Origin: Candidatus Gastranaerophilales bacterium | GTDB lineage: Bacteria; Cyanobacteriota; Vampirovibrionia; Gastranaerophilales; Gastranaerophilaceae | Length of the DNA: 38,919 nt | Reading direction: 5' to 3' | Assembly (NCBI GenBank): GCA_947588785.1 | Contig: CANPZN010000011.1 | Location: 1-38,919, forward strand | In this document: positions 19,139-24,614 of the stretch, piece after piece | Layout of the letters: each line of letters begins with the position of its first letter | Position numbering within the stretch: position 1 is the stretch's first letter | Made by a program: the position numbers and the translations under genes | Notes under the pieces: generated by a model | Database searches by the model: none | What the model saw: only the letters and a program-made list of their open reading frames with translations | What the model was told of the DNA's origin: nothing

Positions 19139-20401
19139 ATGATGAAAAAACGTGTAGTAATAACAGGTATGGGGGTAGTATCTCCTTTCGGAGTCGGCTC
19201 TGATAAATTATGGAATAGCGTTGTATCTGGAAAAAGTGCTATTTCAAGAATAGAGAATATGGAAGATATGAGCGGACACACTGTATTAATAGGCGGTGAA
19301 ATAAAAGAATCAGTTTTTAATCCTATTAATTACTTTGAACCAAAAGAAGCAAAAAGATTAGATAAATTTTTACAATATGCCGTAGTAGCAGCAAGAGAAG
19401 CTATTGAAGATTCCAAAATAAAAGAATCAGGTATTGATCCTTATAGGTTTGGAGTTATTGTCGGTTCTGCTGCGGGGGGATTTCATACTATAGAAAAAAG
19501 TTATACGGCAATGGTTACCAAAGGTCCTACAAAATGTAGTCCATATACTATTCCTATGCTTATATGTGACATGGCGGCAGGAAGAATTTCTATGGAAGTT
19601 GGTGCAAAAGGACCAAACAAAGCAATTGTTACGGCATGTGCAACTGCTGCACATTGTATTGGCGATGCTTTTAGAACAATTCAATATGGAGAAGCTGATG
19701 CAATAATTGCAGGTGGTAGTGAAGCTGTTATATGTACTATTGGTCTTGGCTCTTTTACGGCAGCAAAAACATTATCAAAAAGAAATGATGAACCGACTAA
19801 AGCCTCTCGCCCTTATGATAAAGACAGAGATGGTTTTGTTATGGCTGAAGGTGCCGGTATATTAATTTTAGAAGAACTGGAACACGCTAAAAAACGTGGT
19901 GCAAAAATATATGCAGAAATAATCGGTTATGGTCAAACCGGTGATGCTTATGATGTTGTTGCTCCGTTACCTGATGGTTCAAGTGCTGCAAAAGCTATGG
20001 AATTCGCTTTAAATGATGCAGGAATAAAGCCTGAAGATGTGCAATATATAAATACCCATGGTACAAGTACTCACTTAGGAGATATAGCAGAAACTTTAGC
20101 AATAGCAAAAGTTTTTGGCGATAAAACTAAAAATTCCAATTTAAGAGTAAGTTCAACAAAATCAGAAACAGGACATATGCTTGGTGCTTCAGGAGCTGTT
20201 GAATCAATTATTTGCATTAATACTATCAGAAACAGTATGATTCCTCCTACAATTAACTTAGATAATATTGATGAGGAAGTTGCTAATTTAAATTTTGTAC
20301 CAAATAAAGCTGAATCAAAATCTGTAGATATTGCTCTAACAAATTCTTTTGGATTTGGCGGACATAATGCCGTGCTAATTTATAAAAAATTTAAACAATA
20401 A
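19139..20401 (+). CDS. fabF: Beta-ketoacyl-ACP synthase II
   Basis: 420 residues. Elongates acyl-ACP. Catalytic Cys167 in VTACATAAH, His307 in NTHGTSTH and His346 in KSETGHMLGA, the FabF/FabB arrangement; length favours FabF. Two ATG codons lie in tandem (19139 and 19142) after GGTGA. Last gene of the cluster; no fabZ or enoyl reductase follows. Confidence 0.98.
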   Translation: MMKKRVVITGMGVVSPFGVGSDKLWNSVVSGKSAISRIENMEDMSGHTVLIGGEIKESVFNPINYFEPKEAKRLDKFLQYAVVAAREAIEDSKIKESGIDPYRFGVIVGSAAGGFHTIEKSYTAMVTKGPTKCSPYTIPMLICDMAAGRISMEVGAKGPNKAIVTACATAAHCIGDAFRTIQYGEADAIIAGGSEAVICTIGLGSFTAAKTLSKRNDEPTKASRPYDKDRDGFVMAEGAGILILEELEHAKKRGAKIYAEIIGYGQTGDAYDVVAPLPDGSSAAKAMEFALNDAGIKPEDVQYINTHGTSTHLGDIAETLAIAKVFGDKTKNSNLRVSSTKSETGHMLGASGAVESIICINTIRNSMIPPTINLDNIDEEVANLNFVPNKAESKSVDIALTNSFGFGGHNAVLIYKKFKQ

Positions 20402-20426
20402 AAGAGGAAGTTAATACTTCCTCTTT
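20401..20426. terminator. Bidirectional terminator after fabF
   Basis: A perfect 10-bp stem, AAAGAGGAAG (20401-20410) with CTTCCTCTTT (20417-20426), loop TTAATA, followed by TTAT. It sits exactly between the convergent fabF and Hcp-like genes and can serve both, though the T tract favours the plus strand. Confidence 0.85.
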
Positions 20427-22019
20427 TTATATCTTTTTTATGTCATCCCCGGCATTTGATATATGATTTATTCCGAATAAATCTTTTAATCCCTGGAATA
20501 ATAAAGGATTTATTATATTAGGGCAACAATAACCGATAAAAATATCCTTTATTCCCAAATATATAAGATTAAAAATATGAGAAACCGTCCTATTATTACA
20601 ATCGAGGATAATTATACTAATCATTTCAATAATATCTTCTTTTATATCTTTTAATTTTTCTATTATTTCATATAAAATAATAAAATCGTAAAACGAATTA
20701 ACATTCCAAAGATTTTCATTATTTGTTTTATTTGAAAATGATATGATAAATGTATCATTTGAGATATTTTTTATAAAATCATTAATATATTCTTTTGTGT
20801 TTGAAAATATATACATACTTCCAATAATTACAATTTTTTTAATTTCTTTATTATTTATTTTTTTTAAGATTTTATCAATATTATAATTAATTTCATCTAC
20901 ACAACAGCCAACAGAAATATCCATTGATGACTCATCATTTTCAAAACCATTTGATTTTATAGCATAATCTATTAATGGTTTAAAATTATTGTTTTCGATT
21001 TTTGAGATTCCAAATGCCGGGTATTTAGCTGATGTATATATTTGTCCTCGAATAACATCTATTTTTGGAATTGAATTACCTGACATATAAATTGGCCCAG
21101 GGAAATATGCAAAATCCAATGGGAAGTTATTAATTGAGCGTTGATAATGACCTTTTAAATTTTTAAATTGTTTTAATTTTTCATATTGAAATGCACTTAT
21201 CATTTCATGATGAGTATAAATATTTATATCAGTATTTTCTACAGCTTTTAAAATATAATATAAATCTCTAAGACTATTGCCTGAAACAAGTATTGCTTTT
21301 CCTTTATATTTAGATGTTGAAACAATTGAATTCCTTATTGGGCCATATTTTTCAATAATTTTTTTATATAATTCACGTGTAATTTTATAATTACAATGTG
21401 AAAATTCTTTTATTTTTTCTTTCCATTCTTCATCCGAAAGTTGAGGGAAATTTGAACTATTTAATAACTTTAAAACTTCTTTTTTAGCTTCAATATAATC
21501 TATACCAAAATTTTTAAGTTCTATTAAACAATTACAAGCATTCAAAACCAAACTTATAATTATATCAGATAAATTTTTTTTATTTAAAGAATAGTCAATA
21601 ACCTCATAATCATTTTGTCGTTCATATTCATTTAAAATTTTTAAAATATCATCTTTAGTTTTCAAGACATAAGATTTTTGAGCAAATAACTCCGGAGTTA
21701 ATGAATTATCACTGCAATATTTTTTATAGATTTCTTCTAATTTCAATTTATTATCATTTAAATCCTGTATAATTACAAAAAAACTTTCTTTGTTAAAATC
21801 TAAATTAACAATTAATAGAGAAATAAATTCAATAACTTTATCTCTATATAAAGACATGTCAAAATTTAAATTTGTTAATTTTTCAATATAAAATACAATC
21901 TGTTTTAATTCTTCTACCAGCATTTTTTTTATTGAAATTACGAGAGGATCAAAGGTAAATACACTTGATGTATTTATACCGGTACACAATGCAGAATAAT
22001 AACTAAAAAACTTATTCAT
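20427..22019 (-). CDS. Hybrid-cluster-protein (Hcp) homologue lacking metal ligands
   Basis: 530 residues. The C-terminal half follows hydroxylamine reductase/Hcp closely in layout: GKAILVSGNSLRDLYYILKA (240-259), THHEMISA (269-276), FPGPIYMSGNS (306-316), then IVIIGS (396-401) and YLGIKDIFIG (487-496). At the places where Hcp has its cluster ligands this protein has Pro226 for His, Ser316, Ser401 and Ser429 for three Cys, Asn/Ser (439-442) for the last Cys, and Asn475 for Glu; only Glu272 remains. The N-terminal cubane cysteines are also gone. It should therefore be unable to hold either iron cluster: a pseudoenzyme or a repurposed fold. Alignment was done by eye against remembered Hcp sequence. 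Eight bases after a glutaredoxin gene. Confidence 0.82.
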   Translation of the reverse strand: MNKFFSYYSALCTGINTSSVFTFDPLVISIKKMLVEELKQIVFYIEKLTNLNFDMSLYRDKVIEFISLLIVNLDFNKESFFVIIQDLNDNKLKLEEIYKKYCSDNSLTPELFAQKSYVLKTKDDILKILNEYERQNDYEVIDYSLNKKNLSDIIISLVLNACNCLIELKNFGIDYIEAKKEVLKLLNSSNFPQLSDEEWKEKIKEFSHCNYKITRELYKKIIEKYGPIRNSIVSTSKYKGKAILVSGNSLRDLYYILKAVENTDINIYTHHEMISAFQYEKLKQFKNLKGHYQRSINNFPLDFAYFPGPIYMSGNSIPKIDVIRGQIYTSAKYPAFGISKIENNNFKPLIDYAIKSNGFENDESSMDISVGCCVDEINYNIDKILKKINNKEIKKIVIIGSMYIFSNTKEYINDFIKNISNDTFIISFSNKTNNENLWNVNSFYDFIILYEIIEKLKDIKEDIIEMISIIILDCNNRTVSHIFNLIYLGIKDIFIGYCCPNIINPLLFQGLKDLFGINHISNAGDDIKKI

Positions 22020-22027
22020 AATAAAAC

Positions 22028-22294
22028 CTAATCTTCTAATAATTTATCTAACTCACCGGCATTATTCAATTTATCAAGGACATCAAAGCCCCCGATTCTT
22101 TTTCCTCCGATTATTATCTGCGGTACGGTTACTTTTCCTTGAATATCATAATATTCACCTAATTTTTTTCTATATTCATCTTCATTTTTTGTAATATCTA
22201 TTTTTTTATAGTCTATATTTTTACTATTTAATAACATTTCCGCCTTTTTACAAAAAGGGCAGTAATCAACTGTATATATAACAACTTCTTTCAT
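22028..22294 (-). CDS. grxC: Glutaredoxin
   Basis: 88 residues, a compact dithiol glutaredoxin. Active site CPFC (Cys12, Cys15), TVPQIIIGG with the cis-proline, and GGFDVL glutathione-binding loop. Reduces disulfides or glutathione mixed disulfides in the cytoplasm, or passes electrons to a partner. Strong ribosome site GAGGTGAT. First of a two-gene operon with the Hcp-like gene, suggesting a joint redox role or joint stress control. The symbol is by class resemblance. Confidence 0.93.
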   Translation of the reverse strand: MKEVVIYTVDYCPFCKKAEMLLNSKNIDYKKIDITKNEDEYRKKLGEYYDIQGKVTVPQIIIGGKRIGGFDVLDKLNNAGELDKLLED

Positions 22295-22365: not shown

Positions 22366-23073
22366 CTATTTACTTATTCGATTAATAATCTTTTCTATAT
22401 TATCTTTTTCATCTTTAGGAAGATCAAAATTTAAGTAATCCTGAAAATATTCAATAGCACTTTCATTGTCATTTCGTGCCATAAATAAAATACCGAGTTT
22501 TTTATATGATGGATGAAAATTTTCATTAACAGAAATTGCCTTTAAATGATTAGAAATTGCCTTGTCTATATTATCATTTGCTTCATAAGCCAATGCCAGC
22601 TGATAATACAAAATTGAATTATCTTGAATTTTTTCAACAACATTTTCATAATTATCTACAGCACTGTCATAATCACCCAATTCATATTGAATGTTACCAA
22701 GATCCCAATAAGCATCAAGATTATCAGGATCAATATCCAAAATTTCAAATAATTGATCCATAGCCAAATCATATCTGCAATCTTCAAGATAAAATCTTGA
22801 TAAATAGTGTTTGAGAGCTATTTCTTTAGGCATTAAAGTAACACCATTTTCAAGAAGATTAATAGCATCAATTATATTTTTATTTTTATAATAGACATCA
22901 GACAAATTAATATAAGCCAATTTATAATAACATAGACCTATATTATTTAGAATATTAGGGTTATTATTGTCAATAACAAGAACTTTTTTAAAAGCCTCAA
23001 TAGCTTCTTCATACTTTTGAGCCTTAAAAAAATCAAGTGCTTGCTGAAGTTCATTATTTATTTCATTTTCCAT
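22366..23073 (-). CDS. Tetratricopeptide repeat protein
   Basis: 235 residues composed of about six TPR units (for instance residues ~8-38 with AQKYEEAIEAFKKVLVID and ~122-150 with YWDLGNIQYELGDYDSAVDN). Acidic and soluble, no signal peptide, so a cytoplasmic scaffold for protein-protein contacts. Partner unknown. No Shine-Dalgarno is seen before the ATG; TAATAT sits six bases upstream with TTGTTT a further 16 bases away, so the transcript may start at the ATG itself. Divergent from the YebC gene. Confidence 0.9.
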   Translation of the reverse strand: MENEINNELQQALDFFKAQKYEEAIEAFKKVLVIDNNNPNILNNIGLCYYKLAYINLSDVYYKNKNIIDAINLLENGVTLMPKEIALKHYLSRFYLEDCRYDLAMDQLFEILDIDPDNLDAYWDLGNIQYELGDYDSAVDNYENVVEKIQDNSILYYQLALAYEANDNIDKAISNHLKAISVNENFHPSYKKLGILFMARNDNESAIEYFQDYLNFDLPKDEKDNIEKIINRISK

Positions 23074-24002: not shown

Positions 24003-24614
24003 CTATGCTTCTTCAGAGAGTATCTGATATTGTTTTGCTTGAGCATCATATAATTTTCTTTTTGCAGCATTCCATAATGCTCTTTTTTGATAATCTTCAC
24101 ATTCTTTTAATGTTGAAGGCGTTCTTTTATCAGCGGAAGCACATATTCTTTCCATTAAATTAATTCTGTTAAAGAACTTTCTATTTGTAGCTTTAAATGC
24201 TTCTTTGGGATTAATTTCTGAATTTTTTGCAATACTTGCAGCAGTATAAAAGATATCGCCCATTTCTTCTTCCATGTGATCATAATTTTGCTTTGTAGAA
24301 TCTAACTCATATTCTTTTCTTGCAACATTAAATTCTTCAATTTCTTCAAGTAAACAATCATTCCACGCTTCAGCAGATTTTGTAAAATCAATTTTTCTGG
24401 TAACGTCATCTATTTTTACAAAAGTATCAAATACATCATTATTATTTGGATTAATTCCCCGCATTAAATTTAATGGCGGAATCTTTGCTGCTTTATTTAT
24501 TGCAAAACTATCTAAATATCGTTTTAAATCATGTTCGACTTTTACGGCATTTGTTTTATCTGAGTGTTTTCCTCGCATAGATGGAACATATTCCATACAG
24601 TTATTAATTTTCAT
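24003..24614 (-). CDS. MazG-like nucleotide pyrophosphohydrolase-domain protein
   Basis: 203 residues. Residues ~85-155 match the all-alpha MazG fold: EEIEEF (90-95) gives the ExxE metal site, EEEMGDIFYTAASIAK (115-130) the ExxD site (Glu117, Asp120), then the amphipathic INPKEAFKATNRKFFNRI. It should hydrolyse (d)NTPs to monophosphates, perhaps damaged nucleotides. An unfamiliar N-terminal ~80 residues (with MRGKH at 13-17 and a basic helix KVEHDLKRYLDSF) is not part of typical MazG. Ribosome site AAGGAGT is strong. Single gene. Confidence 0.8.
   Translation of the reverse strand: MKINNCMEYVPSMRGKHSDKTNAVKVEHDLKRYLDSFAINKAAKIPPLNLMRGINPNNNDVFDTFVKIDDVTRKIDFTKSAEAWNDCLLEEIEEFNVARKEYELDSTKQNYDHMEEEMGDIFYTAASIAKNSEINPKEAFKATNRKFFNRINLMERICASADKRTPSTLKECEDYQKRALWNAAKRKLYDAQAKQYQILSEEA

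Follow-up and report, generated by a model that had tools for sequence, protein, structure and literature searches.

A clade of ligand-less Hcp paralogues with a co-varying cysteine pair and a recurrent glutaredoxin neighbor in Candidatus Gastranaerophilales

What becomes of a protein with the fold of Hcp once most of the residues that hold its metal clusters are gone? The question is raised by a gene pair on a contig of a Candidatus Gastranaerophilales bacterium (GenBank assembly GCA_947588785.1, contig CANPZN010000011.1, positions 1 to 38,919 of the forward strand), a stretch of 38,919 nucleotides that we refer to in full as the window. The source assembly comprises 2.1 Mb and is 93% complete. 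Both genes lie on the minus strand. The upstream gene encodes a glutaredoxin-3-like protein of 88 amino acids (22028–22294) with a CPFC active site and the VPQ and GGFD glutathione-site motifs. The downstream gene (20427–22019, start ATG at 22017–22019), characterized by homology searches, alignment and a structural model, encodes a ligand-less Hcp paralogue of 530 amino acids in a reading frame unbroken over 530 codons. The two are separated by 8 nt, as the original prediction had noted. The pair is convergent with the fatty-acid gene fabF, and a bidirectional terminator-like hairpin (20400–20427) between fabF and the Hcp-like gene forms the 3′ end of the two-gene unit; the terminator scan found two sites against 0.7 expected. 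Directly upstream of the glutaredoxin gene in the window is a gene for a TPR-repeat protein (22366–23073, minus strand), which adjoins a yebC-like gene, a position kept in most of the genus. A protein with a MazG/PRA-PH-like nucleotide pyrophosphohydrolase domain is encoded near the yebC-like gene (24003–24614, minus strand), and in one other genome (G066, locus L157) a glutaredoxin occupies the TPR/yebC-like site without an Hcp-like gene.

The resemblance to Hcp, proposed from the reading of the letters, was borne out by profile search and structure prediction. The 530-residue protein matches TIGR01703 (E = 2e-52, residues 12–530), the Prismane family PF03063 (E = 1.8e-19) and PDB entry 7de4 (E = 1.7e-32). 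An AlphaFold model built from 59 clade members (pLDDT 85, pTM 0.86) finds its good fold matches among Hcps of classes I and II only (TM up to 0.79), followed by CO dehydrogenases (CODHs; TM 0.44–0.50), values that set the protein apart from the Ni,Fe-CO dehydrogenases. Profiles and model together indicate a full-length Hcp fold and a homology beyond chance. The TIGR01703 score of 178 bits nevertheless falls below the curated equivalog cut-off of 360.8, as do those of other clade members (165–192 bits); canonical Hcps of the same genus and order, used as controls, score 708–774 bits. Judged by these scores together with the ligands, cubane motif and gene neighbors described below, the clade protein does not count as a functional Hcp and is instead a variant inside the Hcp fold family.

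The seven ligands of the hybrid cluster are conserved in all Hcp classes (PMC10502027). For comparison, 126 members of the clade and 24 canonical Hcps of the same class were placed in one alignment, with the ligands numbered after D. vulgaris. None of the eleven ligand columns varies in the canonical set, as far as the sequences reach. The window protein, by contrast, lacks six of the seven hybrid-cluster ligands: in this alignment His244 is replaced by N248 (21276–21278; this and every codon below is on the minus strand), Cys312 by S316 (21072–21074), the persulfide ligand Cys406 by M402 (20814–20816), Cys434 by N430 (20730–20732, uncertain by one residue), Cys459 by F443 (20691–20693, locally uncertain) and Glu494 by N475 (20595–20597). 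The seventh, Glu268, is retained as E272 (21204–21206), yet only 34/126 clade members have Glu there. All seven columns are unconserved in the clade, where S, N, T or D stands at His244, E, D, N or G at Glu268, S, I, L or T at Cys406, Y, A, F or G at Cys459, and D or N at Glu494; the Cys312 column holds mainly Ser (68 members), followed by Ala (17), Phe (14) and Glu (13), and that of Cys434 mostly Tyr (77/126). Overall, of the 201 columns that are invariant in canonical Hcps, only 24 are retained by 80% or more of the clade.

The original prediction was therefore right that most ligands have gone, but several of its residue assignments do not stand: it had placed His244 at Pro226 rather than N248 and Cys406 at Ser401, the neighbor of M402, and had assigned residues other than N430 and F443 to Cys434 and Cys459. 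The Glu ligand that it gave as lost, at Asn475, is Glu494. It had also read three Cys-to-Ser changes at fixed places as a sign of selection, whereas a single Ser (S316) occupies a Cys-ligand position, and the variation of the ligand columns across the 126 orthologues rules out a fixed ‘Ser set’. The four-Cys N-terminal cubane motif is incomplete. Neither C3 nor C6 remains; C15 persists in 123/126 members, as C12 in the window (21984–21986), and C21 in 86/126, although it is absent from the window’s genus. The cubane cysteines said to be missing are thus gone at C3, C6 and C21 in the window, but not at C15.

The ligand-less paralogues form one side of a branch with support of 100 in our tree. 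A match to the clade profile was found in 255 of the 264 genomes of the window’s family that remain when 22 from other families are set aside from the 286 searched; among these matches one is canonical only and a few weaker ones were not individually checked, which leaves the clade gene in roughly 250/264. Outside the order, in the sampled phylum and scored by profile alone, there are only weaker matches of up to 286 bits, and GTDB contigs, when scanned for close relatives, yielded just one locus. Frames are intact in more than 140 clade members from many assemblies, synteny is conserved, and close orthologue pairs have dN/dS values of 0.04–0.19, as in canonical Hcp. The view that the gene is not simply decaying is upheld by these data, and long selection for a new role, also put forward at the outset, is strongly supported by near-universal presence in a single clade under purifying selection as strong as that on canonical copies. 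Moreover, no canonical Hcp was found in the window’s own 93%-complete assembly, so the paralogue is not an accessory subunit of one there; with many relatives likewise lacking a canonical copy, such a role is ruled out as a general one.

Divergent Hcp homologues also occur in sister families. Three of them (loci L069, L082 and L085) fall outside both the clade and the canonical group, with ligand loss that ranges from partial to near-complete: L069 keeps the cubane, C312, C406 and Glu268, and the other two keep fewer. L163 and L164 are likewise sister-family homologues of the order with partial to near-complete loss. Despite changes at His244, Cys434, Cys459 and Glu494, L069 passes the TIGR01703 cut-off, so automatic annotation would call it a hydroxylamine reductase. 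Within the clade, ligand-less paralogues stand almost end to end in tandem arrays of three (L037, G051:C145, 3620–8485) and two (L039, G055:C41, 429–3688), the members of which differ in their N-terminal cysteines. A shorter ligand-less subfamily of about 474–504 amino acids is found in a few genera (L087, L088, L089, L137–L144, L176 and L177), most of its members retaining the cysteines C474 and C498 described next.

The residues that the clade conserves and canonical Hcps lack number just four: D302, R324, C474 and C498. C474 (20598–20600) stands at D. vulgaris Tyr493, beside the lost Glu494, and C498 (20526–20528) at Thr517 in the GPT/SLP motif; all 24 canonical sequences lack both, having Tyr beside Glu494 and the Thr or Ser of the GPT/SLP loop instead. 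The two cysteines are present together or absent together. Both occur in 118/126 aligned members, neither in 8, and one alone in none; 20 further members added after the alignment, several of them picked for low profile scores, all carry both, for totals of 138, 8 and 0 among 146. Among 5632 column pairs tested, this is the sole pair with perfect correlation (r = 1.0). On the tree it undergoes six changes, with 5–6 independent joint losses, and the five independent comparisons are all concordant, although with only five strictly independent joint losses a sign test cannot fall below p = 0.06. The eight members without the pair are otherwise intact.

In the model of the window protein C474 and C498 each lie three residues past the end of a strand (467–471 and 492–495) in a strand-helix-strand unit. 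A second model, of a distant member 26% identical to the first, has matching strands (471–475 and 496–499) and the same placement of the cysteines, which makes it likely that the two are adjacent in the structure. Additional cysteines are conserved. C102 (21714–21716), in the helical domain, is present in 117/126 members, and the N-terminal tail carries in most members a C-X5-C motif that is the second half of the cubane motif. The tail is modeled with low confidence in both proteins (pLDDT mostly <50) and is probably flexible. The window’s genus and its near kin have an extra cysteine, C499 (20523–20525), that never occurs together with C21: among the 126 members, 86 have C21 only, 37 C499 only, 3 neither and none both, a swap that corresponds to about 2–3 changes on the tree. 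The original prediction had named ligand cysteines elsewhere in the chain as an objection to itself, and the objection partly applies: a new Cys pair is conserved, and the number of conserved cysteines in the clade as a whole is four to five. We therefore consider the absence of any metal likely, and no more than that.

The neighboring gene offers a second line of evidence. The window glutaredoxin is an ordinary family member, scoring 72.7 bits against PF00462 (cut-off 22.9), and it is the one glutaredoxin above the Pfam cut-off in its genome. A glutaredoxin-type gene stands directly upstream on the same strand, within 60 nt and in some cases overlapping, at 83/125 clade loci but at 0/22 canonical Hcp loci. 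Canonical copies in the order often neighbor an Rrf2 regulator, with a ferredoxin-domain gene as well in cases that lie mostly outside the family; neither cluster was seen beside clade members. The linked glutaredoxins belong to two subfamilies, 39 being Grx3-like, as at every locus read from the window’s genus, and 44 short and GST_N-like. Since Grx3-like genes and weaker matches of GST_N-like length co-occur in some genomes (G059 and G161), the two look like separate paralogues, and the coupling to the Hcp-like gene probably arose more than once. The proposed tie to thiol redox is strengthened by this recurrent, operon-like linkage to two subfamilies.

The co-occurrence is nonetheless incomplete. 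At 42/125 clade loci the gene is unlinked, with a glutaredoxin elsewhere in the genomes checked, and one genome (L152, G002:C13, 2945–4861) lacks the Hcp-like gene but has glutaredoxin, TPR and yebC-like genes where they are normally found. The glutaredoxin must accordingly have other clients, and a strict dependence on the Hcp-like gene is ruled out. Whether a member has lost the Cys pair does not correlate significantly with whether its gene is unlinked (p = 0.12). The nucleophilic Cys of the CPFC motif (22259–22261 in the window) is present in 83/83 linked glutaredoxins, and the second active-site Cys is Ser (CPYS) in 8/83. A CPYS glutaredoxin reduces mixed glutathione disulfides and does not carry out classical dithiol exchange. 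We also considered a connection of CPYS variants with pair loss and rejected it, as they coincide in one genus only (L038 and L107) and the six other CPYS loci keep the pair. As for glutathione synthesis, gshA-type genes were found in 24/24 and gshB-type genes in 23/24 genomes tested, adjacent to each other in G000.

Our preferred reading, put forward tentatively and at somewhat short of an even chance, is that these proteins are a clade of Hcp paralogues that have lost both metal clusters and work by cysteine chemistry. C474 and C498 would be next to each other in the cavity left by the hybrid cluster, switching between dithiol and disulfide. The flexible N-terminal tail, with one or two of the old cubane cysteines, would hand reducing equivalents to them, and the glutaredoxin with glutathione would re-reduce the tail or the pair. 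The old path from ferredoxin through the cubane to the hybrid cluster would in this way be replaced by one from glutaredoxin through tail thiols to core thiols. In its favor, a coupling of the tail region with the Glu494 loop is documented in Hcp: variants of a class III Hcp in the cubane ligands lose the Glu coordination of the hybrid cluster (PMC10502027). Hydrophobic tunnels reach the hybrid-cluster cavity in Hcps (PMC10210160), so a small substrate is plausible; the likeliest would be a small oxidant or nitrosothiol arriving through the old gas tunnels, or else a protein thiol. The more ambitious form of this proposal, which we regard as rather doubtful, is that in these non-photosynthetic Cyanobacteria of the gut the whole of a CODH/Hcp-superfamily metalloenzyme fold has gone over to metal-free thiol chemistry, Cys pairs taking the place of clusters and glutaredoxin that of ferredoxin, to give a thiol-dependent reductase, possibly of NO-derived or peroxide substrates.

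The main rival to the thiol model is a relocated metal site, in which C15 (window C12), C21 (or C499 in the window’s genus), C474 and C498 would bind one Fe-S cluster or zinc, the old cubane and hybrid sites having merged, with the glutaredoxin inserting or protecting the metal. Such a four-cysteine set is present in 114/126 members (patterns CCCCC., C.CCCC and CC.CC.), and C499 is confined to members without C21, as though standing in for it. The structural coupling of the N-terminal cubane region to the Glu494 loop in a solved Hcp (PMC10502027) speaks for this rival too, and CooS-V (PMC9311411) sets a precedent for an altered cluster on a CODH/Hcp scaffold. However, C15 and C21 both persist in 7/8 members without C474 and C498, a pattern that favors two distinct pairs over a single site with four ligands; the exchange of C21 for C499 amounts to those roughly 2–3 events only, and there is no conserved His, Glu or Asp column that could supply a ligand. 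On balance we find the relocated site unlikely, though it is to be taken seriously.

The thiol model must also be weighed against a protein without turnover, a pseudoenzyme or binding protein that uses the Hcp shell as a scaffold or sensor, for example of NO, glutathione or a partner protein, and in which C474–C498 is a structural disulfide or a regulatory switch. The lost hybrid-cluster ligands and the small share of canonical-invariant columns still kept (24/201) speak for such a protein, and the tandem paralogues of some genomes fit a binding role. The cytosol of an anaerobe is reducing, though, and a structural disulfide would be out of the ordinary there; the glutaredoxin linkage is conserved, and the conserved cysteines appear to sit at the old active site and not at the surface. 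We judge this explanation unlikely, to nearly the same degree as the relocated site. It is very unlikely that the protein is mainly a target of glutathionylation recycled by the linked glutaredoxin; this would suit the glutathione genes in nearly all genomes tested and a monothiol mechanism, in which the first glutaredoxin Cys is always kept and the second can be Ser, but it leaves the large enzyme fold and the strict pairing of two cysteines unexplained. The ligand losses alone could be taken for decay, but a gene that is degenerate, chimeric or the product of misassembly is scarcely credible and is ruled out by the intact members from many assemblies, their dN/dS values and their synteny.

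To our knowledge, Hcps and CODHs are regarded as metal enzymes throughout. Among open-licence papers we found none on an Hcp paired with a glutaredoxin or on Hcp in this lineage. A clade present almost throughout a gut lineage that has their fold without those ligands would be one of the few instances in which the rebuilding of an iron-sulphur enzyme around cysteine chemistry can be traced, with apparent intermediates in sister families that have lost the ligands in part. One consequence would be that the label ‘hydroxylamine reductase’, when assigned automatically in these genomes, can mislead on nitrogen metabolism.

Among known systems, class I Hcp, a hydroxylamine/NO reductase (PF03063, TIGR01703; D. 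vulgaris 1E2U, M. thermolithotrophicus 8CNR), is the best match in both sequence and fold. The clade shares its full-length three-domain fold with the outer helical bundle, and half of the cubane motif is kept in most members. It differs in lacking the hybrid-cluster ligand set, in its incomplete cubane and new Cys pair, in scores below the curated cut-off, and in having glutaredoxin rather than ferredoxin or Rrf2 genes as neighbors. CooS-V of Carboxydothermus hydrogenoformans has lost one Cys ligand and still holds an Fe-S-O cluster (PMC9311411). Like the clade protein, it is a member of the CODH/Hcp superfamily with an altered active site and a changed function; the clade protein, however, is without cluster ligands and is Hcp-like rather than CODH-like. 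The partner genes are ordinary members of the glutaredoxin 3 and GST_N-type mini-glutaredoxin families, with which they share the CPxC, cis-Pro and glutathione-site motifs, and what is unusual about them is their linkage to an Hcp paralogue. In class I ribonucleotide reductase, a flexible C-terminal tail carrying cysteines relays electrons from glutaredoxin to a buried Cys pair. The relay proposed here would follow the same plan in an unrelated fold, a likeness of analogy and not of homology.
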